Below, piece after piece: positions 7,071 to 46,105 of a DNA stretch of 64,000 bases. The notes beneath the pieces are model-generated. The model did no database searches and had not been told where the DNA came from. It saw only the letters and a program-made list of their open reading frames with translations. The stretch lies in NCBI GenBank assembly GCA_015709715.1, contig CP054184.1, positions 2,837,001-2,901,000 on the forward strand, read 5' to 3'. The translations under genes and the position numbers were made by a program. Numbering within the stretch: the first letter of the stretch is position 1; each line of letters begins with the position of its first letter. This DNA is from Nitrospira sp. GTDB taxonomy: Bacteria > Nitrospirota > Nitrospiria > Nitrospirales > Nitrospiraceae.

Positions 7071-7658
7071 ATGGGGCGACGCATCACGATCATCCAAGGA
7101 CATCCCGATGCGCAGGCGCGTCATTTTGGGCATGCCTTGGCGGATGAATATGCCAAGGGTTGCGAGGATGGCGGGCACCAGGTCAAGCGGATCGAAGTGG
7201 CGCAGGGGGAATTCCCGCTGTTGCGAACCAAGGAGGAGTTTGAAAAGGGCAACCCCCCGCCCATGATCCTGGAGGCGCAGCGGGCAATCGAATGGGCGGA
7301 CCATCTGGTGATCCTCTATCCGCTCTGGTTGGGCTCGATGCCGGCCTTGCTCAAGGCCTTCTTCGAGCAAGTCTTTCGCCCCGGTTTCGCCTTCGAGTAC
7401 GGCGAGCGGGGCCGCCTTCCTGTCAAACGGCTAACCGGACGGTCGGCGCGGATCGTGGTGACGATGGGGATGCCTGCCTTCGTGTACCGGTGGTTTTTCT
7501 TGGCCCATAGTCTGAAAAGTTTAGAGCGGAACATCCTGCAGTTCGCCGGCATTAGTCCCGTCAAGGTCACCCTCATCGGCAACGTCGAGGGGATGAGCGA
7601 GCAGCAGCGGGCAGGGTGGCTGGATGAATTGAGGGGATTAGGCGATACCGGACAGTGA
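7071..7658 (+). CDS. NAD(P)H:quinone oxidoreductase-like flavoprotein
   Basis: 195 residues with the flavodoxin-like fold of the NQO1/KefF/YwrO group. Start ITIIQGHPDAQ is the first strand and FMN/FAD phosphate loop; VILYPLWLGSMPALLKAFFEQVF is split here into the typical YPLWW-type segment (YPLWLGSMPALLKAF) and the dimer helix. These cytosolic enzymes reduce quinones or similar electrophiles with NAD(P)H. ATG 7071 is used. The gene is followed by a short non-coding stretch and a clear intrinsic terminator at 7836-7873. Confidence 0.85.
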   Translation: MGRRITIIQGHPDAQARHFGHALADEYAKGCEDGGHQVKRIEVAQGEFPLLRTKEEFEKGNPPPMILEAQRAIEWADHLVILYPLWLGSMPALLKAFFEQVFRPGFAFEYGERGRLPVKRLTGRSARIVVTMGMPAFVYRWFFLAHSLKSLERNILQFAGISPVKVTLIGNVEGMSEQQRAGWLDELRGLGDTGQ

Positions 7659-7835
7659 GGCGCTAGGTCGACCATCAAAGGCATTCGCGGGAGCATCGAA
7701 AAGAGATTGGAGGCCTTGGGGCATCAGGTGGATGCATCAGGCCTTTCTTCCGGAAAGTAAACATGGACTCATGGCAGCGCTTGTAGTACACCCCTGCCAC
7801 AATTTCTATTAGAGGCCAGAGAGCACCGACTCCAG

Positions 7836-7873
7836 AGCCCGAGCCCCCTATGAAGGAAGGCTCGGGCTTTTTT
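7836..7873 (+). terminator. intrinsic terminator
   Basis: A perfect 10-bp GC-rich stem, AGCCCGAGCC paired with GGCTCGGGCT, separated by a 13-base loop and followed by TTTTT then ATT. It would end transcription of the flavoprotein gene and insulate the cupredoxin-cytochrome operon that starts about 50 bases later. It is the clearest intrinsic terminator in the window. Confidence 0.85.
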
Positions 7874-7922
7874 ATTGGCCACTGCCCTGGGCACCCGCTC
7901 AGGTTGCTCGATGAGGTGCTTC

Positions 7923-8783
7923 ATGGTTCGACCTCGACGTTGTCTTCGGTGCCTGTTCGTCGTCTGTCTGGCATTTCCGCTGATGGGTGTCAATGAGGGA
8001 TTTGCCGACTACCGTGTGATCGACGTGGCCGACGGGGCCACGGTGAAAGGGCAGGTGGTGTGGACCGGAGCCGTTCCCGAGCTCCCTCCTATCAAGGTGT
8101 TCGCCGACCTGGACAGTTGCGGGACACAGGTAGCGTCTCCGGTGCTGCGAATCGATCCGGCTACTCATGGACTGGAAGAGACGCTGGTCTATCTCGAACG
8201 AGTAGAGCAGGGAAAGGCCCCCGAGTCATCCTATCGGGTGGCCATGGGGGAGCGTGATGGAGACCCCGCTACCCGCCAGTGTCAGTTTCAGCAGCAAGTC
8301 TTTCCCTTCGTGCGGACCTCCGATCTCACGCTGATCAATCATGAATCGGTGCTGCACAATCCGCATGTCTTCAGTGAGAAGCACAGCAGCCTCTTCAACC
8401 TCGCACTGCCGACGGCCGGGCGTGAAATTACTGCGCGGTTGCCGCGAGCAAGGGGAGTCGGCTTGCGGTTGCAATGTGATGTCCACGTGCATATGAACGC
8501 CTGGGCTGCCGCACTGGAACATCCCTATTTCGCGGTGACCGATGCGCAGGGCCGTTTCGAGATCGGGAATATTCCCCCCGGCACCTACACGCTGGTGGCC
8601 TGGCATGCCGGCTACAACATCGTGAGGTTCATCGCCTCCCGCCCGCTGTATGACGACCCCCATATCCTGCGCCAGACAATCGAGCTGTCGCCGAAGGCAC
8701 AAGTGGAGCGACGGTTCGAGTTCCCCGCCCGGCCGGTGGAAGTCGAGTGGAAGGTCGCCGGCGGAGAGGAGGGCGAGCGATGA
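7923..8783 (+). CDS. secreted cupredoxin-like protein
   Basis: 286 residues with a Sec signal peptide (cleavage probably after GFA, before DYRVID). The central domain (about residues 115-195) has the ligand pattern of a type-1 copper site: an upstream VLHNPHVFS histidine pair and the C-terminal loop CDVHVHM, i.e. Cys-x2-His-x2-Met. The C-terminal part (ALEHPYFAVTDAQGRFEIGN, then PPGTYTLVAWH) is a carboxypeptidase-regulatory-like beta-sandwich. I expect a periplasmic electron carrier or copper-binding protein. ATG 7923 is chosen for the AGGTG eight bases upstream; earlier codons back to 7875 fall against the terminator. The stop overlaps the next start (ATGA). Confidence 0.75.
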   Translation: MVRPRRCLRCLFVVCLAFPLMGVNEGFADYRVIDVADGATVKGQVVWTGAVPELPPIKVFADLDSCGTQVASPVLRIDPATHGLEETLVYLERVEQGKAPESSYRVAMGERDGDPATRQCQFQQQVFPFVRTSDLTLINHESVLHNPHVFSEKHSSLFNLALPTAGREITARLPRARGVGLRLQCDVHVHMNAWAAALEHPYFAVTDAQGRFEIGNIPPGTYTLVAWHAGYNIVRFIASRPLYDDPHILRQTIELSPKAQVERRFEFPARPVEVEWKVAGGEEGER

Positions 8784-10246
8784 CGATGCAGACCGTTCAG
8801 ACCAGGGCGGCCATCGCCGGCATCCTCGTCCTCTTCGCGCTCATGAGTTACGGGCTCAGCGGCCTGGTGGAGCGCGCCGATGCGATTCCGGCCTTCGCCA
8901 GGAAGTATGATTTTAAGTGCAACGTCTGTCACGTGCCTGGTTTTCCCAAGCTCAATGACTTCGGCAACCTCTTCCGGGACCGGGGATATCAATTGGGGTC
9001 AGAGGCGGATTCGCCGGTCTACGAGGGCATCGGCATGGGCTATTGGCCGGTTTCGTTGCGCACGACGGCCGGTTACCAAGCAGCGACCGTCCGCACCGAC
9101 GGCTCCGGTGTGACGACCGGCGGCTTCGGCTTCACCGGCTTGGATCTGTTGAGCTTCGGCACGTTGGATCGTAACTTGGCGTTCGGGGTCGTCTTCACCC
9201 CGGGGCTTGGCAGCGCGGGGTTCGGGACCGGTGCCTCCGATAGTGACTTGGAGGCTGCGTTTGTGCGGCTCATGCGGTTGGAGCGGTTTCTGGGGGTGAA
9301 GAGTGCAGGCGGTGACTATCTGCTGAACCTGAAGGTCGGAAAGTTCGAACTGGATCTGCCGTTCAGCGAGAAGCGGAGTCCGACCTTGAACACGACCTTC
9401 GCGATGTATCACTACATGCCTGGTACACCCTACACCGCGACCATCGGGGGTACTTCCACCAGTTCCTACCTCAATCCCAATACCTTTGCGATCGGCGAGA
9501 ACCAGCCCGGCGCAGAACTGTCCGGTGTCACCAAGACCTCGGCGACCGACGGCTACTTCCGCTACTCGCTGTCAGCGTTGGCCACGAACACGTTTTCCGG
9601 CCCCCTGAGCGGCTGCCCCAGTGGCACCACCTGCGGGACGGGCGGCCGGAACGTCAACTTCTACGGCCACGTCACGCAATCGTTCGGGGGCTACGGCATC
9701 GTGACCGGTCAGCGCATCGGCCTCTTCGGCGCCTATGGGACGGCTCCGACATTGGTCAATCCCACCTGTCCGACTTGCCAAGCCGTGGCCGGAAGCGGGC
9801 AGCCGTTCAGCCGGTTGGGTGTGGATGTCAGCTTGACGTTCAATGGAGAATGGAACCTCTTCGGCGCCTGGATGTGGGGCAACGACAGCAAGAACATGTT
9901 TGTCTCACAGGGCATCGCCGACGCCCAGAATGCGTCCTGGCACGGCGCGTTCATTGAACTCGACTATGCGCCGGCGCTGTTGCCGTTGCTCAACATGCCG
10001 GACTGGTTTTTTGCCTACCGATATGATCTGATTCGCAACAATCGGCAGGGTGATCCCACCTTCGCCAAGAACTACAACAATGTCGATTCCCACACTGTCC
10101 TCGTCCGGTACTTCATCCACCACTCCACCAGGACGGATTTGGCGCTGCACGCCGAGTACAACAGTTACCGGACGACCGGCGTCGGGGCCAACGGCGGGGA
10201 TTTGCTGGGCCAGACGATGTTGGTCGGATTCGATTTCGCCTATTGA
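8780..10246 (+). CDS. monohaem cytochrome c / outer-membrane beta-barrel fusion
   Basis: 488 residues. A signal peptide ends at about residue 35 (ERADA), then a single haem-c motif CNVCH at 47-51 in the context FARKYDFKCNVCH and a following FGNLFRDRGYQL segment. The remaining ~400 residues alternate polar and aromatic residues with Gly-rich turns, as in a transmembrane beta-barrel, and the chain ends in aromatic LVGFDFAY, the usual BAM signal. Loop cysteines (GCPSGTTC, PTCPTCQ) may form disulfides. I infer a porin-like outer-membrane protein with a haem plug or periplasmic haem. ATG 8780 overlaps the upstream TGA. Confidence 0.75.
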   Translation: MTMQTVQTRAAIAGILVLFALMSYGLSGLVERADAIPAFARKYDFKCNVCHVPGFPKLNDFGNLFRDRGYQLGSEADSPVYEGIGMGYWPVSLRTTAGYQAATVRTDGSGVTTGGFGFTGLDLLSFGTLDRNLAFGVVFTPGLGSAGFGTGASDSDLEAAFVRLMRLERFLGVKSAGGDYLLNLKVGKFELDLPFSEKRSPTLNTTFAMYHYMPGTPYTATIGGTSTSSYLNPNTFAIGENQPGAELSGVTKTSATDGYFRYSLSALATNTFSGPLSGCPSGTTCGTGGRNVNFYGHVTQSFGGYGIVTGQRIGLFGAYGTAPTLVNPTCPTCQAVAGSGQPFSRLGVDVSLTFNGEWNLFGAWMWGNDSKNMFVSQGIADAQNASWHGAFIELDYAPALLPLLNMPDWFFAYRYDLIRNNRQGDPTFAKNYNNVDSHTVLVRYFIHHSTRTDLALHAEYNSYRTTGVGANGGDLLGQTMLVGFDFAY

Positions 10247-10259
10247 GCGCCGCGGCCTG

Positions 10260-11039
10260 ATGCCTGTTGTCGCGGTCATCCTGGTGCTGCTTGCTGTGAC
10301 CTTGGGCGGTTGTACGACGACGGCGCCGAGAGAAGGCCGCTGCGTCGTCTGCGACGAGCAGCGGCTGGTGCGCGTCGTTCCGTCCGCTGCCGCCGGCGGA
10401 TCTGTTTCCTCCGGGCGGTGGGACCACCCGTTGATCCTTGAAGAAGCTGAGTGGGAAGGCATCCTGCGGAGCCTGCAGGTGCGACGTATCCGCCGCCCTC
10501 TTCTCGGTCCCTCTCAAGAGGGCCCTCCCGAGCCGGTCTTCTCCGATGAGGAGGCGCGATTCCTCGCCGATTCCCTTCACCAAGCCTTTCGTCAGGCAAC
10601 TCCGCGAGACTCTGTCGTCTTCGCCCTGGTGCGGCCGGACGAATCGGGCCCACCGTTAGTGACGTCCGGCGCCTGGTTCGTGGAGCGCGGGCGGCTCCAT
10701 CTGCGGCTGGCGAACTCGCTGGTGGCGGTCGCGCTGCCGTCGATCCGAACGCAAGTGTGGAATGATCCCCTGTTCGCTCAGGATGGCTCATATGAGCCGG
10801 TGGCACGGCCCGGTCAAGAACTGGTGGAGGGACCCCGCGGCGTGAGGGACGTGGTCTTGGCATATGGAACTGCACGGCAGCAGCCGGAACCGTCGACCGT
10901 CTCGGATGGGCCGTCATCACCATCCGTTCCTCCTCCCCTGGAACAGCAACTCGGCCTGCTCAAGCGGCTTCATGAGCAGGGCCTGATTACGGACGAGGAC
11001 TATCGAGCCAAGAAGCAACAACTCCTCGATCGTCTGTGA
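10260..11039 (+). CDS. lipoprotein with C-terminal SHOCT domain
   Basis: 259 residues. ATG 10260 opens a lipoprotein signal (VILVLLAVTLGGC, lipobox LGGC), followed by a low-complexity region and a ~120-residue folded part of unknown family (WEGILRSLQVRRI, FSDEEARFLADSLHQAF, GAWFVERGRLHLRLAN). The last 32 residues (LEQQLGLLKRLHEQGLITDE and KKQQLLDRL) are a SHOCT (short C-terminal) domain, often found at the end of unrelated proteins. It starts 13 bases after the barrel-cytochrome stop, so it belongs to the same operon and may be an envelope partner of that protein. Confidence 0.8.
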   Translation: MPVVAVILVLLAVTLGGCTTTAPREGRCVVCDEQRLVRVVPSAAAGGSVSSGRWDHPLILEEAEWEGILRSLQVRRIRRPLLGPSQEGPPEPVFSDEEARFLADSLHQAFRQATPRDSVVFALVRPDESGPPLVTSGAWFVERGRLHLRLANSLVAVALPSIRTQVWNDPLFAQDGSYEPVARPGQELVEGPRGVRDVVLAYGTARQQPEPSTVSDGPSSPSVPPPLEQQLGLLKRLHEQGLITDEDYRAKKQQLLDRL

Positions 11040-11060: not shown

Positions 11061-11813
11061 TCACCGCTCACTCGCATAGCGGCTGTGTAGCTTCACCGGT
11101 GTGGCGGCCCGTTTGCGGCGCATCCGAATGTTCAGCATCTCGACCGTGACGGAAAAGGCCATGGAGAAGTAGATGTAACCCTTCGGGACGTGCACGTCGA
11201 ATCCCTCCACCATCAACGTCACGCCGACCAGAATCAGAAACGACAGGGCCAGGATCTTCACCGTGGGGTGGGCATCCACGAAGTCGCCGATGGCCTTGGC
11301 CGCCATCAGCATCACCACCACCGCCAGGATGATGGCAACCGCCATGATCGACACATGGTCGACCAAGCCCACCGCCGTGATTACCGAATCGAGCGAGAAG
11401 ACGATGTCCAACAGTGCAATCTGCAGCAACACCATGCCGAGGCTGGCTTGGACCGTCGGCGCCGCATGTTCTTCCACACCTTCCAGGCTGTTATGAATCT
11501 CGTGCGTGGCCTTCGCCATCAGGAACAGGCCGCCCCCGATCAGGATCAGGTCGCGGCCGGAGATGCCCTGTCCCAGCACCGTCACCCAGGGTTTGGTCAA
11601 TCCCATGACCCACGAAATGGAAAACAGGAGCGCCAGGCGCGCCAACATGGCCAGGCCCAGACCCATCTTCCTGGCGAGGGCCCGCTGCGCCTCCGGCAAC
11701 CGGCCCACGAGGACGGAGATGAAGATAATGTTATCGATCCCCAGCACGATCTCCAGCGCGGTCAGAGTTCCGAGCGCGATCCACACTTCCGGATTGGCCA
11801 GCCAGTCCAGCAT
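11061..11813 (-). CDS. TerC-family integral membrane protein
   Basis: 250 residues, about seven membrane segments. Family motifs are LTALEIVLGIDNIIFISVLV near the N-terminus and DIVFSLDSVITAVGLVDH in the second half; the paired GIDN / SLDS acidic residues within membrane helices are the hallmark of TerC proteins, which are linked to metal (Mn, Ca) export and tellurite resistance. The C-terminal tail is basic (RMRRKRAATPVKLH). It runs convergently against the SHOCT lipoprotein gene with only 21 bases between stops, and no terminator hairpin is obvious there. Confidence 0.9.
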   Translation of the reverse strand: MLDWLANPEVWIALGTLTALEIVLGIDNIIFISVLVGRLPEAQRALARKMGLGLAMLARLALLFSISWVMGLTKPWVTVLGQGISGRDLILIGGGLFLMAKATHEIHNSLEGVEEHAAPTVQASLGMVLLQIALLDIVFSLDSVITAVGLVDHVSIMAVAIILAVVVMLMAAKAIGDFVDAHPTVKILALSFLILVGVTLMVEGFDVHVPKGYIYFSMAFSVTVEMLNIRMRRKRAATPVKLHSRYASER

Positions 11814-11949: not shown

Positions 11950-12981
11950 CTAGACCGGATCTTCGGGAGGGGACGGGTGTTGATGCAAGGTTTCGAGAAA
12001 CAGCAGATTCAGATCTTGTGTCATCAGGTTGACCTGCGTCTTGAGCAGGCCCAGCATCTCGCTGCGATGCCGTAATTCGTTGATGCGGTAGATACCTCCT
12101 CGACCGAAATAGAGTTCCGTCAGGCGTTGCTCCTGCTTGGAACCGGGCTTGCCGAGGCGAGGGCGCCAGTTGCCGATGATGTGGTCGCGGCGGGTCCGTT
12201 TGCCGTTGGGGCGGATGGAGCTGTTCAAGTAGCGCCAGACCGGTTGCGGAAATTGCTCGCTGGTCCGGTCGTTGTGCCAGATGTCGGCCATGAGGTTGCG
12301 CCCGTGCTTAAATTCATAGGCCTGATCGCCGCCCAGCGCCGCCACGCCGAAGCCCAACGCGGCCACGCTTCCCGACAGGTCGATAATACCTGATAGGACC
12401 TCCGAGCCCAGGAGTAGGAATGTTCCGGCGAAGACTCCGGAAATAGAGTCGGCCAGAATGGCCATGATTGTCCGACCCTGTTGGATGTCGTTGCGAACCT
12501 CTTCGAGTTGCGAAGCCAGGTCCTCCGCCCGCTCCTTTTCGCACTCCAACTCGGCCGCAATGCTGTTCGCCTCGAACAGCGCCAACAGCAACCGATCGGA
12601 CAGTTCCTGGCGCACAGCAAGGGACCGCAAGGATGCGCCGTCCAGGCCGCGGGCCATGTCACCTTCCAGCAATTGGAACTCCGCCAGCAGATCGTGCACC
12701 CCGATGATGGCGGCGATTTCCCTGGCTCGCGGCGAGAAACGCACGGAGTCGATCGTATCGCTTGCGGTGGTCGTCGAGGTCCGGTCGATGCGATAGCCGC
12801 TGTTGACCGGAGGATGACCGACGACCTGTGTGGGCGGATTGGTGGTGGGAACGCAGTGGCTTTCAGTGATGTCATCGTCCTCGCCGTCGGCCGCCCTGAT
12901 GTGTGGTCCGCCGGCGCAGCCCTGCAGGAGGGCGACGGAGAGACAACCGGCGAGGATGTAACGAGAAATTCCAACGGCCAT
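11950..12981 (-). CDS. putative lipoprotein with helical and hydrophobic regions
   Basis: 343 residues from ATG 12981; a TTG six codons further upstream is possible but lacks support. The N-terminus SRYILAGCLSVALLQGC is a lipoprotein signal with lipobox LLQGC. Residues ~80-160 are predicted helical and probably coiled coil (ELECEKERAEDLASQLEEV), followed by a hydrophobic pair of segments (FAGTFLLLGSEVLSGIIDL, GSVAALGFGVAALGG) and a basic C-terminal half. The layout suggests an envelope protein that associates with a membrane. I recognise no family. Confidence 0.7.
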   Translation of the reverse strand: MAVGISRYILAGCLSVALLQGCAGGPHIRAADGEDDDITESHCVPTTNPPTQVVGHPPVNSGYRIDRTSTTTASDTIDSVRFSPRAREIAAIIGVHDLLAEFQLLEGDMARGLDGASLRSLAVRQELSDRLLLALFEANSIAAELECEKERAEDLASQLEEVRNDIQQGRTIMAILADSISGVFAGTFLLLGSEVLSGIIDLSGSVAALGFGVAALGGDQAYEFKHGRNLMADIWHNDRTSEQFPQPVWRYLNSSIRPNGKRTRRDHIIGNWRPRLGKPGSKQEQRLTELYFGRGGIYRINELRHRSEMLGLLKTQVNLMTQDLNLLFLETLHQHPSPPEDPV

Positions 12982-13156
12982 GCGTATGACTGACGACAAG
13001 CGGACGAGGCGTACCGACAGGGCAACACCACTTGACGAAGGTACAGGATCAACATGAAAGCCGTATGAAAAGAAGATGAATGGTCGATGAAGTTTTGCGG
13101 CGGGCGGCGGCAGGCCTGCCCGACGAGGGCCGACCTGGCACCGCCCATGCGGTGGG

Positions 13157-40083: not shown

Positions 40084-41355
40084 ATGAGTCACGACCTGGG
40101 GCGAGCCGGTGATCGGAGCATGACACCAACCGTGATAGGTGTGAGTCGGGGTTCGGTGCGATGGGTATGGCCGTCGGTTTCGTTGCGTCGCCTCAGGCCG
40201 GTCCCCCTGTTGGTCTGGGTCCTGCTCCTCGCGGCCCAGGGATGCGACCGCGATCCTTCCCCGAACCCTGCCGCTCATCCGGCGAACCGGTCGGTCGAGG
40301 GCATCGTTCGATTGACCCAACAGGAGATGGCCCGGGCGGGGATCGACGTGCTGCGGGTCAAAGCGGAGCCGTTCACCGTCCATCGGGAGTTTCCCGCCAC
40401 CGTGCAGGCCAACGCCAACGAACTGGCGGAGGTGACGACCCTGATCCGTGGCCGGGTCGTGGAGGTGTCGGTGGATGTCGGCAAGGATGTGAAGAAGGGA
40501 GAGCGGCTCGCCCTGCTCGACAGCGCCGACTTGGGCTTGGCCGAGGGGGCCTACCTCAAGGCGTCGGCCCGCCAGCATGAGGCCCAGTTGGCCTATGAAC
40601 GGGCCGCCAATCTCCACGAACATCGCGCGATCAGCCTGGCGGAACTTCAGCGGCGGGAAGCCGAGATGAAAACGGCGCGAGCGGACGCGCGGGAAGCCGC
40701 CCATCGCCTGACGTTGCTCGGCGTGGCATCGCAGGAGCTGCAGCGGCTGGACCGCGAGCAGACCATCCGCTCGGATGTGGCGATCCGTGCGCCCTTCGCC
40801 GGCCGAGTGATCGTCCGTAATATCACGCGCGGCGAGGTCATCGAGACCGCGCAGAAATGTTTCGTGATCGCCGACTTGTCCGACGTGTGGGTGATCGGCA
40901 ACGTGCCGGAAAAGGATGTCCGGTTCATTCGTCCGGATGAGTCGGTCAAGGTCGTCGTGCCGGCCTATCCGCATGCGCTCTTCTCCGGCACCATCACCCA
41001 CATCAGCGACGTGCTTGATCCGGAAACCAGGACCATGCGCCTGCGCGTCACGGTGCCGAACCCCGATCGCTTGCTCAAGCCTGAAATGTTTGCCATGGTC
41101 CAGGTCTATACGGCGACGGTGCAGGAGGCCCTGCGGGTGCCCCTGGCGGCGGTGCAAGAGATCGATGGGGGGAAGATGATCTTCGTGAAACGGGCGGACG
41201 ACCGCTTCGAGCCGCGTCGCGTGGTGCTGGGCGACGAGCAGAGCGAGCACGTGATGGTGCTGGAAGGACTGCGGGAGGGTGAAGAGGTGGTGGTGAAGGG
41301 GGCGTTCGCACTCAAATCGGAGGTCGAAATCCACAGGGTCGAACCCACGCCATGA
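40084..41355 (+). CDS. RND efflux membrane-fusion protein (CzcB/CusB-like)
   Basis: 423 residues from ATG 40084; GTG 40141 or ATG 40120 are possible. The N-terminus ends in a lipoprotein-type signal (VWVLLLAAQGC). The order of adaptor elements is complete: barrel-sandwich half GRVVEVSVDVGKDVKKGERL, helical hairpin (LKASARQHEAQLAYERAANL), second lipoyl half VAIRAPFAGRVIVRNITRGE and the DVWVIGNVPEKDVRFI beta-barrel. It links the inner-membrane pump encoded next (four-base ATGA overlap) to an outer-membrane channel that is not in this window. Confidence 0.9.
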   Translation: MSHDLGRAGDRSMTPTVIGVSRGSVRWVWPSVSLRRLRPVPLLVWVLLLAAQGCDRDPSPNPAAHPANRSVEGIVRLTQQEMARAGIDVLRVKAEPFTVHREFPATVQANANELAEVTTLIRGRVVEVSVDVGKDVKKGERLALLDSADLGLAEGAYLKASARQHEAQLAYERAANLHEHRAISLAELQRREAEMKTARADAREAAHRLTLLGVASQELQRLDREQTIRSDVAIRAPFAGRVIVRNITRGEVIETAQKCFVIADLSDVWVIGNVPEKDVRFIRPDESVKVVVPAYPHALFSGTITHISDVLDPETRTMRLRVTVPNPDRLLKPEMFAMVQVYTATVQEALRVPLAAVQEIDGGKMIFVKRADDRFEPRRVVLGDEQSEHVMVLEGLREGEEVVVKGAFALKSEVEIHRVEPTP

Positions 41356-44300
41356 TCGCATCGCTCCTCGAATTCTCGCTGCGCCAGCGCATCCTGATCC
41401 TGGGACTGCTCTCGTTGCTGGCCGGAGCGGGACTGATTGCCTTCCAGTCGATTCCCATCGACGCCTATCCCGACGTGACCAACGTCCAAGTGCAGGTACT
41501 GACGGAAGCGCCGGGCCTCTCGCCGGTCGAGGTGGAGCGGTTCATCACCTATCCCATCGAACTCCAGATGACCGGCCTGCCGGGGCTGAGCGAGATCCGC
41601 TCGCTTTCCAAGTTCGCGCTCTCCCAGTTGACGGTGGTGTTCGATGACGAAGTCGACGTCTACTTCGCGCGCCAATTGGTCATGGAGCGGCTGATGACGG
41701 TGAAGGAGCGGCTGCCGCCGGGCATCGACTCCGTGATGGCGCCGGTGACGACCGGCCTGGGTGAGATTTATCAGTACTATCTCGACGGTCCCCCGGCGGC
41801 GACGGATGCGGCCTCGAAGGAACTGGAATTGACGTCTCAACGCACGCTGCAGGATTGGGTGCTCCGTCCGGTGCTCAAGGGTGTGCCGGGTGTCATCGAC
41901 GTGAACGGGTTGGGCGGGTTTGTGAAGCAGTACCAGGTGCTGGTGGACCCCGCCAAGTTGCGCAAGTACGACCTCACGTTGCATGAGGTATTCGACGCCG
42001 TGGGGAAGAACAATGCCAATGCGGGCGGCAACGTGCTGGAGCGCCATGCGGAGCGGGCCATCGTGCGCGGGGTGGGCCTGATCAAGGCCATTCCCGATAT
42101 CGAGAGCATCATCGTCAAGGAGGTCGGCGGGACTCCCGTCTTCGTCCGCGACGTGGCCGAGGTCCGTATCGGGCATGCGGTTCGGCATGGGGCGGCCGTG
42201 TTGAACGGCGAGCGAGAGGTGGTGGCGGGCACGGTGTTGATGCTGCGCGGCGGCAATGCGCGGGAAGTGGTCGGCGCGGTGAAGGAGCGGGTGGCGCGGA
42301 TCCAGCGCGACGGGCTCCTTCCCGACGGCCTAGAGCTGGTGCCCTTTTATGACCGCATCGAGCTGGTGACCGCCGCCATCAATACCGTGCGCGACGCCCT
42401 GATCGAAGGGATCGTCCTGGTCACGCTCGTGTTCTTTCTGTTTCTCGGCCATGTGCGGAGCGCAATCGTGGTGACGGCTTCCTTGCTGGTGACGCCCCTC
42501 ATGACATTTCTGGTGATGCAGCGGGCGGGGCTCTCCGCCAACCTCATGACCTTGGGCGGGTTGGCCATCGGGATCGGGGAGATTGCCGACGGGTCGCTGG
42601 TGGTGGTGGAAAACGTCTATCGCCACCTGTCTGAGAATCGCCACAGCGAACGCTCGCGGCTCGAAGTCATTCTGCGGGCCACCAACGAAGTGGGGCGGCC
42701 GATTCTGTTCGGGATCCTGGTCATCAGCGTCGTGTTCCTGCCCTTGATGACGCTGCACGGCATGGAAGGAAAGATGTTTGCGCCGTTGGCCTATGCGCTG
42801 GTGATCTCGTTGCTGGCGTCGGTCGTCGTCACCCTCACCCTCTCGCCCGTGCTCGCGTCCTTGGTGCTGCGCGGCGACCATCCGGAGGAGACCCGACTGA
42901 CGCGCTGGATGAAAGCGCGCTACCAACCGGTCTTGCGCTGGACGTTGGCCCACCGTGGAGCGGTGTTGGCGGGCGCGACGGCGGTCGTGCTGGCGAGCCT
43001 GACGCTGGTTCCCTTCGTGGGACGAGAATTCATTCCCATTTTGGAGGAGGGGGCGCTGACGCCGCAGATCGTGCGGCTGCCGAGCGTCTCCCTGCCGGAG
43101 TCGATCGAGATCGAGAAACAGGCGCATCGCGCCATGCTGGAATTCCCCGAGGTGCGGATGGCGGTCAGCAAGATCGGGCGGCCGGACATCGCGGTGGGCC
43201 CGGAAGAACCGAATGAAAGTGATCCGGTCATACAACTGCAGCCGCGCGGGTCATGGACGAGCGCCAAAACGCAGTCCGCACTGGTGGATGCGATTCGGAT
43301 CAGGTTGGCGGAAATTCCCGGCATCTCCGTGTTGATGAGTCAGCCGATTCAAGAACGAGTGGACGAATTGATTTCCGGGATTCGCACCGCCTGCGCGATC
43401 AAGTTGTTCGGCGATGATCTGGAGGTGTTGTACCGACAAGCCGAGTCGATCGCGGACCTGCTGCGGACGATCGAGGGCGTGAAAGACGTGAAGGTAGAGC
43501 AGGTGGCGGGGCAGCCGTACCTGACGCTCGATATCGACCGGCAGAAGATCGCGCGTTATGGGATCAACGTGTCCGACGTGCAGGACATCATCACCACCGC
43601 GGTCGGCGGCAAACCCGCCACGCAGGTGTATGAAGGAGAGCGCCGGTTTCAACTGATCCTGCGGTTTCCCGCCCAGTACCGCAACAGCATCGCGGCCATC
43701 GGAGATATTCGGGTTCGGTCCGCTTCCGGGGCGCCGATTCCCCTCAGCGAACTGGCCACCATCGAAATGCGGGAAGGCCCGGCGCGCATCAGCCGCGAGC
43801 AGGTCAAGCGCCGGATCTACATCGGCTTTAATGTGGTGGGGCGTGACATCGGCGGGGTGGTCGATGAGGGGCGCAGGAAGTTGGCGGAACGGATTCGCCT
43901 GCCGCAGGGGTACACAGTGACCTGGGGCGGGGCGTTTGAAAACATGGAGCGGGCGAACGCGCGGCTGCTGGTGGTCGTGCCCATCACACTCGGGCTCGTG
44001 TTTTTTCTGTTGTTCTGGGCCTTCCATTCGCTTCGGTATGCGACGTTAATCATCCTGAATCTGCCGTTCGCCTTGATCGGGGGCTTGGTGTCGCTCTGGT
44101 TGAGCGGTCAGTACCTGAGCGTACCGGCGTCCATCGGTTTCATCGAACTGTTCGGCTTGGCGGTGGGCAACGGGATCGTGCTGGTGTCCTACATCAATCA
44201 ACTTCGCAATGAAGGTCAGCCGATGGATGCGGCGATCATGGCGGGCTGCGTGCTGCGGCTGCGCCCCGTGATCATGACCATGATGACGACGTTGCTGGGG

Positions 44301-44477
44301 TTGCTGCCGCTCGCCCTCGCGCAGGGTATCGGCGCGGAGGTCCAGCGGCCGCTGGCGACCGTCGTGGTGGGGGGCTTGGTCACGTCGACGCTCTTGACGC
44401 TGGTGGTCTTGCCGGCGCTCTACCGGGCCTTTGCCGATCCCGAACTCACGCGCGAGCAGGCGCCGGAGTGGGTGTAG
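41352..44477 (+). CDS. CzcA-family heavy-metal RND transporter
   Basis: 1,041 residues, the length and twelve-helix plan of HME-RND pumps. Periplasmic start AFQSIPIDAYPDVTNVQVQV and EVERFITYPIELQMTGLPGL are diagnostic for the CzcA group. The TM4 motif is LAIGIGEIADGSLVVVEN. In Czc-type Zn/Co/Cd pumps this helix reads DFGxxVDGxxxxxEN; here the first Asp is replaced by Gly and a Glu lies three positions before the second Asp, so the metal cannot be assumed. Start overlaps the adaptor stop by four bases. Proton-driven export of a metal cation is the expected role. Confidence 0.92.
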   Translation: MIASLLEFSLRQRILILGLLSLLAGAGLIAFQSIPIDAYPDVTNVQVQVLTEAPGLSPVEVERFITYPIELQMTGLPGLSEIRSLSKFALSQLTVVFDDEVDVYFARQLVMERLMTVKERLPPGIDSVMAPVTTGLGEIYQYYLDGPPAATDAASKELELTSQRTLQDWVLRPVLKGVPGVIDVNGLGGFVKQYQVLVDPAKLRKYDLTLHEVFDAVGKNNANAGGNVLERHAERAIVRGVGLIKAIPDIESIIVKEVGGTPVFVRDVAEVRIGHAVRHGAAVLNGEREVVAGTVLMLRGGNAREVVGAVKERVARIQRDGLLPDGLELVPFYDRIELVTAAINTVRDALIEGIVLVTLVFFLFLGHVRSAIVVTASLLVTPLMTFLVMQRAGLSANLMTLGGLAIGIGEIADGSLVVVENVYRHLSENRHSERSRLEVILRATNEVGRPILFGILVISVVFLPLMTLHGMEGKMFAPLAYALVISLLASVVVTLTLSPVLASLVLRGDHPEETRLTRWMKARYQPVLRWTLAHRGAVLAGATAVVLASLTLVPFVGREFIPILEEGALTPQIVRLPSVSLPESIEIEKQAHRAMLEFPEVRMAVSKIGRPDIAVGPEEPNESDPVIQLQPRGSWTSAKTQSALVDAIRIRLAEIPGISVLMSQPIQERVDELISGIRTACAIKLFGDDLEVLYRQAESIADLLRTIEGVKDVKVEQVAGQPYLTLDIDRQKIARYGINVSDVQDIITTAVGGKPATQVYEGERRFQLILRFPAQYRNSIAAIGDIRVRSASGAPIPLSELATIEMREGPARISREQVKRRIYIGFNVVGRDIGGVVDEGRRKLAERIRLPQGYTVTWGGAFENMERANARLLVVVPITLGLVFFLLFWAFHSLRYATLIILNLPFALIGGLVSLWLSGQYLSVPASIGFIELFGLAVGNGIVLVSYINQLRNEGQPMDAAIMAGCVLRLRPVIMTMMTTLLGLLPLALAQGIGAEVQRPLATVVVGGLVTSTLLTLVVLPALYRAFADPELTREQAPEWV

Positions 44478-44587
44478 GACGAATTTCCAATCGACGATCT
44501 CCTTGACTGTGCGAGATGATGTAGTACAACCAGAACGAGGATTCATACCGTCGCTTCGTTCAATCCAGCATGACCAGAGGATATTCC

Positions 44588-46105
44588 ATGGTTGGTTCCA
44601 CTCCCCCGTCCGGTCGCCCGCTGTACGATCCGCACGCGCTGCTCGACTCGCAACCGGTGAGCGTGACCGTGATCGATCCCGCCGACCATACGATTCAGTT
44701 TCAAAACCAGACGTCCGTGAAGACCTTCGGTCCTATCGCAGGCGGGCGGTGCTTTCAGAAGATTGTCGGGCAGGCCGGTCCTTGCGCGTTTTGTCGCATG
44801 CCGGATGCCTTGATCCATGATGGAATTCTTTCCGAAGAGGTGGCGCTGCCGGACGGCCGGCCCCTGTTGATCCATTGGGCCAAGGCCGCCACGACTGACG
44901 GGCGGACCCACGTGATTGAAACCATCATTGATCTGACGGCGCGTCGGCAGGATGAACAGAGCCTGCGGCAGTCGCAGAAAATGGAGGCGCTCGGGCGGCT
45001 GGCGGCGGGCATCGCGCACGACTTCAACAACCTCCTGATGGTCGTGACGGGGCATGCGCAGCGCGTGATGCAGCAACTGGGCTCGCATCCCTGTCGGCAT
45101 GAGGTGGAGTTGATCGGCCAGGCCGGCGCGCGGGCGGCCGCCTTGACGAAGAAGCTGTTGACCTTCAGCCGCAGGCAGGTGTTGGAGCAACGCGACGTGC
45201 CGCTCAACACCTTGGTCCGCGACATGGAAGATATTCTGCGCCGCCTGATCGGTGAGCAGATCCAGACGGTGATTGTGCTCGATCCGCAAGCCGGGCATGT
45301 GCTCGGCGATTCCGTGCAGATCGAACAGGTCCTGCTTAATTTGGCGCTCAACGGGCGCGACGCGATGGCTGAGGGCGGCATCCTCACGATCGAGACCGGC
45401 AATGCCGATTTGGACGAAACCTATGTGCGGGCGCATCCCGGCGCGGTTCCCGGTCCCTACGTCAAAATGGTCGTCGAGGATACGGGCTCCGGCATCGACC
45501 CCGAGACCTTGGCGCATATCTTCGAGCCGTTTTTCAGCACCAAGGAGGCGGGCCGGGGAACCGGCCTCGGGTTGGCGACGGTATACGGCATCGTCAAGGA
45601 AAGTCGCGGCTACATCGAGGTGGTGAGCCAACCGGGACGAGGCACGCGATTTACCGTGATGTGGCCGCGGGTGCTCAAGCCGACGGCAGAGGTCGAAGCG
45701 ACAGCGCCGGCTCCGGCGCGTCCGGCTACCTGTGCGACGGTGTTGCTGGTGGAGGACGACGAAGGGATTCGAGGCCTCATGACGGCGGTACTGCGAGACC
45801 AGGGCTACGAAGTCTTGGCGGCGGGGGATGGCGTGGAAGCCCTGCAGATGCTGCAGCTGCGCAAAGGCGGCTGCGACCTGCTGATCACCGACGTGATCCT
45901 GCCGCGAATGAAAGCTGCCGTGTTGGTGCAAGGAGCGAAGGCGATGTTTCCCCGGCTCAAGGTCCTGTTCATCTCGGGATATGCCGGAGATATGTTGACC
46001 TCGCACGGGGTGGATGCCCAGGCGGCCTACCTGCAGAAGCCCTTCCTACCGCAGACCCTCATCGACAAGGTGGCGGACATGCTCCTGCCCCAGTCCCCGC
46101 CCTGA
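44588..46105 (+). CDS. PAS hybrid sensor histidine kinase with receiver domain
   Basis: 505 residues, no membrane segment, so cytosolic. Residues ~20-115 form a PAS-like sensor with three cysteines (Cys55, Cys66, Cys69 in RCFQKIVGQAGPCAFCRM), a possible redox or metal site. Then HisKA with His144 (AGIAHDFNNLL), HATPase motifs LNLALNGRDAM, VVEDTGSGI, FEPFFSTKEAGRGTGLGL, and a C-terminal receiver (VLLVEDDE, Asp435 in DLLITDVILP, YLQKPF). ATG 44588 is preferred (AGAGG eight bases upstream) over ATG 44570. It follows the efflux genes by ~110 bases and may control them, an inference from position only. Confidence 0.9.
   Translation: MVGSTPPSGRPLYDPHALLDSQPVSVTVIDPADHTIQFQNQTSVKTFGPIAGGRCFQKIVGQAGPCAFCRMPDALIHDGILSEEVALPDGRPLLIHWAKAATTDGRTHVIETIIDLTARRQDEQSLRQSQKMEALGRLAAGIAHDFNNLLMVVTGHAQRVMQQLGSHPCRHEVELIGQAGARAAALTKKLLTFSRRQVLEQRDVPLNTLVRDMEDILRRLIGEQIQTVIVLDPQAGHVLGDSVQIEQVLLNLALNGRDAMAEGGILTIETGNADLDETYVRAHPGAVPGPYVKMVVEDTGSGIDPETLAHIFEPFFSTKEAGRGTGLGLATVYGIVKESRGYIEVVSQPGRGTRFTVMWPRVLKPTAEVEATAPAPARPATCATVLLVEDDEGIRGLMTAVLRDQGYEVLAAGDGVEALQMLQLRKGGCDLLITDVILPRMKAAVLVQGAKAMFPRLKVLFISGYAGDMLTSHGVDAQAAYLQKPFLPQTLIDKVADMLLPQSPP

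Follow-up and report, generated by a model that had tools for sequence, protein, structure and literature searches.

A three-gene operon on the forward (+) strand of the window, the 64-kb stretch of the complete 4.16-Mb genome of Nitrospira sp. (GCA_015709715.1) that was analysed here, probably encodes a Cyc2-type outer-membrane electron-uptake module. Gene 1 (7911..8783) encodes an exported cupredoxin with a carboxypeptidase-regulatory-like (transthyretin-type) segment, gene 2 (8780..10246) a fused monohaem cytochrome-porin of the Cyc2 family, and gene 3 (10260..11039) a lipoprotein with a near-invariant CxxC and a C-terminal SHOCT domain. A first-pass annotation of the same DNA had suggested an electron conduit or metal-handling module. 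The conduit is well supported and remains the best reading of the operon; copper handling is disfavoured, because the carrier is exchanged for a cytochrome c in related lineages. The gene order, its conservation, the sequence motifs, the predicted folds and the family membership are, with this exchange, the observations on which the assignment is built.

The Cyc2-family cytochrome-porin

Cyc2 proteins are recognized by the motif AXPXFAR[Q/K][T/Y] ahead of a single CXXCH with PXL four residues further on, a length of at least 365 amino acids, and a 16-strand porin for which OprP and OprO are the reported templates (Keffer et al. 2021, PMC8406198). Gene 2 reads AIPAFARKY-DFK-CNVCH-VPGF-PKL and agrees with the published motif and spacing: the signature AIPAFARKY (8882..8908), located by comparison with that motif, is followed by the putative haem c site CNVCH (residues 47–51; 8918..8932) and, four residues on, by PKL. 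Residues C47, C50, H51, P56, and L58 are invariant in 38 barrel homologues, and the haem motif with its surrounding domain is the most conserved part of this family. The protein is 488 amino acids long and opens with a hydrophobic N-terminal helix (residues 2–27) followed by A-D-A, as expected of the length and signal peptide of a Cyc2, the signal peptide being judged from the sequence and model rather than by a dedicated signal-peptide program.

The AlphaFold2 (AF2) model of gene 2 (ma77b542c4652), made from the 38-sequence alignment, contains 16 predicted beta-strands of an outer-membrane barrel spanning residues 92–487 (9053..10240), with a predicted local distance difference test score (pLDDT) of 80.7 and a predicted template modelling score (pTM) of 0.80. 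Foldseek ranked OprP (2o4v) first (E 2e-11) and OprO (4rjw) fourth, in line with the OprP/OprO-like fold of Cyc2. VIA-align gave Z ~24 against many 16-strand porins, which speaks to the fold alone. The first-pass annotation had described an outer-membrane barrel with one haem c motif and had named structure prediction as a check that the barrel closes; the predicted 16-strand barrel, with CNVCH just past the signal peptide, bears this out.

Because it combines the signature motif, the single CXXCH, the PXL, the required length and a 16-strand OprP-like porin, gene 2 can be assigned to the Cyc2 family, and its product presumably resides in the outer membrane and carries haem. Comparison of the gene-2 family with plasmid-borne proteobacterial Cyc2-like proteins by hhalign gave a probability of 98.2 (E 4e-14), and the full motif occurs in three of the four plasmid proteins compared, with a close form in the fourth. 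The Methylocystis plasmid protein in turn matches a plasmid protein of Acidithiobacillus ferrooxidans (E 7e-55). Pfam and NCBIfam searches returned no family match for the gene-2 barrel, nor did a sequence-profile search of the PDB. No Met or His after the CXXCH is invariant across the 38 barrels, and a second axial haem ligand is not evident. Within its own genome, the DNA pattern tested for the Cyc2 motif occurs only in gene 2 and in one shortened remnant.

Partner genes and conservation in Nitrospira

Gene 1 was assigned from a family profile, Pfam, AF2 and Foldseek. The codon of the first copper-ligand residue, His149 (8355..8357), falls in an invariant alignment column, and the copper loop C189-DV-H192-VH-M195 (CDVHVHM; 8475..8495) has the spacing C-x2-H-x2-M. 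Across 33 homologues that are 22–66% identical, the four ligands H149, C189, H192, and M195 never vary, and neither do two further cysteines, C70 and C124. The family profile matches amicyanin chains in structures over the copper domain (E ~1e-6), consistent with the loop spacing, which we take to be that of amicyanin. The AF2 model (pLDDT 86.9) most resembles small cupredoxins in Foldseek (purple cupredoxin 5fc9 and amicyanin), with weak matches (E 4e-4 to 5e-3). A CarboxypepD_reg segment comes after the copper loop of gene 1, and 32 of the 33 homologues have such a segment. The type-1 copper pattern noted in the first-pass annotation is borne out by these ligands and this profile match, and gene 1 can be read as encoding a type-1 copper protein that is presumably loaded with copper. 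The gene-1 family has one to nine matches in each of the 172 Nitrospiraceae genomes searched. Three more cupredoxin/regulatory-like members, two of them adjacent, lie within 5 kb of one another elsewhere in the source genome (C1:3367524-3372278).

Gene 3 has a lipobox (LGGC, residues 15–18) and a SHOCT domain (PF09851, E 1e-7; residues 230–256, 10947..11027), the lipoprotein architecture that had been proposed for it. Each cysteine of C28-x2-C31 (10341..10352) is kept in 38 of 41 homologues, and the family mostly retains C28, C31, H56-P57, G137, N152, and P170. Its members adjoin a Cyc2-like gene in the clade of the window and at eight loci of other Cyc2 clades, sometimes in convergent orientation. 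Gene 3 therefore looks like a Cyc2-associated lipoprotein and a candidate accessory protein; any more specific role for it is a guess.

The three genes travel together. Among 29 genomes of the genus Nitrospira, 23 have the gene-2 barrel and all 23 of these have a cupredoxin orthologue (E <1e-100), while none of the six genomes without the barrel has one: their cupredoxins are all distant (E 1e-15 to 1e-21). This co-occurrence has a Fisher p of 2e-6, not corrected for shared ancestry. The order cup–cyc2–lipoprotein is retained across the genus wherever the contig permits, so the linkage that had been named as a further check on the original proposal is conserved. Invariant ligands, an invariant haem motif and a genus-wide gene order place the three-gene pattern beyond chance.

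The strength of selection differs among the genes. The barrel is 79–93% identical, with a ratio of nonsynonymous to synonymous substitution rates (dN/dS) of ~0.03–0.10, indicating strong purifying selection; the cupredoxin is 65–70% identical (dN/dS 0.12–0.17) and the lipoprotein 48–52% (dN/dS 0.19–0.27), all three ratios being rough, with dS close to saturation. For a porin, it is unusual that the barrel is nearly invariant while its partners evolve faster; this suggests a pore under tight constraint. Were gene 2 simply a substrate porin whose haem is structural or vestigial and whose neighbours are there by coincidence, its OprP/OprO-like fold would be explained, but not this degree of constraint, the concentration of conservation around the haem motif, or the recurrence of carrier genes beside the porin in varied arrangements, and we regard such a porin as highly unlikely.

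Carrier exchange and the proposed mechanism

At twelve loci from sister lineages, a monohaem cytochrome c (Pfam Cytochrom_C) occupies the place of the cupredoxin directly upstream of cyc2. One further locus (L125) has both a cytochrome c and a cupredoxin, and another (L128) has the order cytochrome c, cupredoxin, cyc2. In five more distant relatives (L055–L059) the monohaem cytochrome c lies downstream of cyc2; in three of them (L055–L057) the relative of the window Cyc2 has one or two genes for monohaem cytochromes c as neighbours, and L056 adds a HAMP methyl-accepting chemotaxis protein, a hint that an outer-membrane cytochrome may be coupled to chemotaxis.

A second group of Nitrospira Cyc2 paralogues, here called the B-clade, has the motif CTACHTAPPRLNTFGERF. 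At fifteen loci of this clade a gene for a dihaem cytochrome c (two Cytochrom_C domains) comes after cyc2 at a distance of no more than a few tens of bases, with a cupredoxin nearby, and these loci often carry a large PAS or hybrid histidine kinase together with a LuxR-type response regulator. The shortened remnant in the source genome (C1:1603041-1603136, outside the window) belongs to this clade; it contains AIPAFARKYALNCTACHTAPPRLNAYR and runs into unrelated kinase-like sequence. The B-clade Cyc2 of the source strain is thus broken, while sister genomes keep an intact copy.

Cyc2-like genes on plasmids of Caballeronia, Methylocystis, Polymorphobacter, Ideonella, and Acidithiobacillus adjoin c-type cytochromes as well, including that of A. 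ferrooxidans (CP084173.1). In the Caballeronia locus (NZ_CP049159.1) a HiPIP gene lies just upstream, the sole HiPIP case among the plasmid loci. The annotated start of this Caballeronia Cyc2-like gene misses the haem motif.

In the tree, the cupredoxin arrangement branches from within the cytochrome arrangements (support 0.996), where the deeper supports are weak (0.4–0.8). Genes in relatives were found as open reading frames carrying the motifs, and a missing partner may reflect the end of a fragment. A cupredoxin lies beside Cyc2 in 20 of 53 loci, a figure biased upward by loci chosen after the proximity had been noticed, so that its binomial p is disregarded; the unbiased measure of linkage is the co-occurrence across the genus. 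Paralogues of the monohaem cytochrome c, ~50% identical, occur in nearly all genomes of the genus, and the source genome is rich in periplasmic cytochromes, with 19 matches to one of them alone; in one genome (G036) a monohaem c match of 63% identity is interrupted by two stops. Because these paralogues persist, the safe statement is that the monohaem c was replaced at the position upstream of cyc2, rather than that all such cytochromes were lost.

What Cyc2 loci have in common is a small periplasmic carrier of single electrons, whose chemistry varies. This exchange of carriers is the best evidence that the gene-1 cupredoxin, as we propose, is the periplasmic electron acceptor of Cyc2: it would be predicted for a carrier that receives its electrons from the haem, and is hard to reconcile with copper handling. 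In a copper-handling module the barrel would admit copper, the cupredoxin would serve as a periplasmic store or chaperone, and the haem would merely tune the redox state of the metal. Although the cupredoxin gene is co-transcribed with the barrel and always linked to it in the genus, a cytochrome c without a copper role stands at the same position in sister lineages, the haem motif is invariant in all 38 barrels, and neither a copper ATPase nor a CopC/D or Cus protein is encoded in the operon. The swap of its carrier speaks against a plain copper-homeostasis module, and copper handling appears unlikely.

The electron-uptake module that we favour would work as follows. A soluble reductant would enter the 16-strand pore; a metal ion is the likeliest candidate, for example Fe(II) or possibly Mn(II). 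At the periplasmic mouth of the pore, the single haem c would accept one electron and pass it to the cupredoxin, which would relay it to periplasmic cytochromes c and from there to the respiratory chain. The SHOCT lipoprotein may anchor or organize the complex at the membrane.

It is also conceivable that the porin-cytochrome signals the extracellular redox state, or the presence of metal, through the carrier to signal-transduction proteins. The kinases and response regulators of the B-clade loci and the chemoreceptor gene of some relatives of the window clade fit this idea, and an iron-sensing role has been raised for the Cyc2 of Sideroxydans (PMC12016527). However, the window operon and its immediate neighbours include no kinase or chemoreceptor gene, nor do the lineage-I loci viewed, and we consider sensing quite unlikely.

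Electron direction is not readable from sequence, and electrons could instead leave the periplasm for an extracellular acceptor or oxyanion. ExtI, the porin of selenite/tellurite reduction operons (NCBIfam NF040900), gives a weak match (E 0.001) in 4 of 38 gene-2 relatives, but none in the window protein itself. Type-1 copper and monohaem c carriers suit high-potential electron uptake and count against outward flow. The Cyc2 proteins of iron-oxidizing bacteria that have been tested oxidize iron (PMC8406198). An outward conduit is accordingly judged quite improbable.

Several observations weigh against the electron-uptake assignment. The haem segment of the gene-2 model (residues 28–60) is of low confidence, the hhalign match spans only the haem domain and the first strands, and direct tblastn of gene 2 to the plasmid homologues gives E 0.03–0.9 only. 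The partners in this comparison are plasmid Cyc2-like proteins, not experimentally tested Cyc2, and Keffer et al. caution that distance from the tested proteins leaves the function of a homologue uncertain. The operon has no gene for a terminal oxidase or for cytochrome biogenesis, and no cyc1. Some near-complete Nitrospira genomes (G030, G034, and G043) are without the operon, which is therefore accessory. The substrate, be it Fe(II), Mn(II) or another, is putative, with knowledge of the family favouring Fe(II).

Operon boundaries and comparison with known systems

The strong terminator of the first-pass annotation was recovered at ~7834..7870 (RNA fold -25.7 kcal/mol, z -4.8, then a T run) on the same strand, as were the three open reading frames behind it. 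It is of the intrinsic type, belongs to the flavodoxin-fold gene upstream (7071-7658), and insulates the operon from it; a consensus promoter/terminator scan did not report it and was otherwise uninformative. Gene 1 starts at the ATG at 7911, with an in-frame ATG at 7923 as an alternative. Genes 1 and 2 share the ATGA overlap already noted (8780-8783), and gene 3 begins 13 bases past the end of gene 2. A convergent TerC-family gene (11061-11813) closes the unit. With the terminator on one side and this gene on the other, the operon consists of exactly three genes. Beyond it lie a putative 349-amino-acid lipoprotein (LLQGCAGG) on the reverse strand (11950-12999), which is 75–79% conserved in several Nitrospira and has no Pfam or NCBIfam match, and an RND efflux pair, made up of an HlyD_D23 adaptor and an AcrB-type pump, with a histidine kinase/receiver hybrid after it (40084-46105).

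The closest named relatives of the source genome are Nitrospira, among them Nitrospira defluvii, in which the operon is present too, and the strain is presumably a nitrite oxidizer like its genus. A search of the genome for ammonia monooxygenase gave no match, but the search controls likewise gave none. Genes resembling cyc2 are recorded in other nitrite oxidizers. Cyc2 homologues are on record in Nitrospirales (PMC9040806) and Cyc2 is named in sand-filter Nitrospira (PMC12070406), with a role in Mn(II) oxidation suggested for the latter and for Manganitrophus; these proteins very probably belong to the same family as gene 2. In the portions covered, these two studies give no account of a cupredoxin or lipoprotein partner, nor of carriers being exchanged, and a search of the open-access literature found no description of a Nitrospira cupredoxin–Cyc2–lipoprotein unit, of carrier exchange or of a CxxC/SHOCT partner. 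The sand-filter study also indicates that Nitrospira is more abundant in iron- and manganese-rich filters than nitrite supply seems to explain (PMC12070406).

It is tempting, though decidedly tentative, to combine these points and suppose that nitrite-oxidizing Nitrospira draw electrons from dissolved Fe(II) or Mn(II) through Cyc2 and the cupredoxin, that the carrier is interchangeable, and that Cyc2 complexes include the CxxC/SHOCT lipoprotein as a new accessory subunit. Nitrospira are nitrifiers of wide distribution, for which a conserved Cyc2 and a dedicated copper carrier would open a concrete, testable route of metal oxidation. The carrier exchange makes the question of the electron acceptor of Cyc2 directly testable, and the recurring lipoprotein is a new candidate subunit.

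The first-pass annotation held that the operon was not any standard system, a view contradicted by the agreement of the barrel with the published description of Cyc2. Like Cyc2PV-1 of Mariprofundus, Cyc2 of A. ferrooxidans, and Cyt572 of Leptospirillum (PMC8406198), gene 2 has the signature, a single CXXCH after the signal peptide, the PXL, more than 365 amino acids and a 16-strand OprP/OprO-like porin. Unlike these characterized proteins, it falls in a Nitrospirota clade of its own with the motif CNVCHVPGFPKLND, and iron oxidation by it is a prediction from the family.

Outer-membrane barrels also provide the electron path in MtrCAB, MtoAB, and PioAB. Membership in MtrAB/PioAB was rejected, since those systems pair a 26-strand barrel with a separate decahaem cytochrome, in contrast to the 16 strands and one fused haem found here.

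Amicyanin shares with gene 1 the C-x2-H-x2-M loop and the upstream His, in addition to the profile and fold matches. Amicyanin stands alone and serves methylamine dehydrogenase, whereas the copper domain of gene 1 lies within a longer protein with a carboxypeptidase-regulatory-like part.

A precedent for pairing Cyc2 with a periplasmic copper protein comes from Acidithiobacillus, whose rus operon (cyc2-cyc1-cup-coxBACD-rus; PMC10654088) is a functional parallel in which copper proteins are the periplasmic carriers for an outer-membrane Cyc2. Several B-clade paralogues of Nitrospira keep a rus-like order of cyc2, dihaem c and cupredoxin. The window operon itself is not a rus operon: between the terminator and the TerC gene there are three genes only, without cyc1 or coxBACD, its cupredoxin differs from rusticyanin in its amicyanin loop and added regulatory-like segment, and it adds a SHOCT lipoprotein. 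What sets the operon apart from the standard systems is thus an amicyanin-loop cupredoxin joined to a regulatory-like segment, a carrier slot that is filled elsewhere by cytochrome c, and the CxxC/SHOCT lipoprotein.

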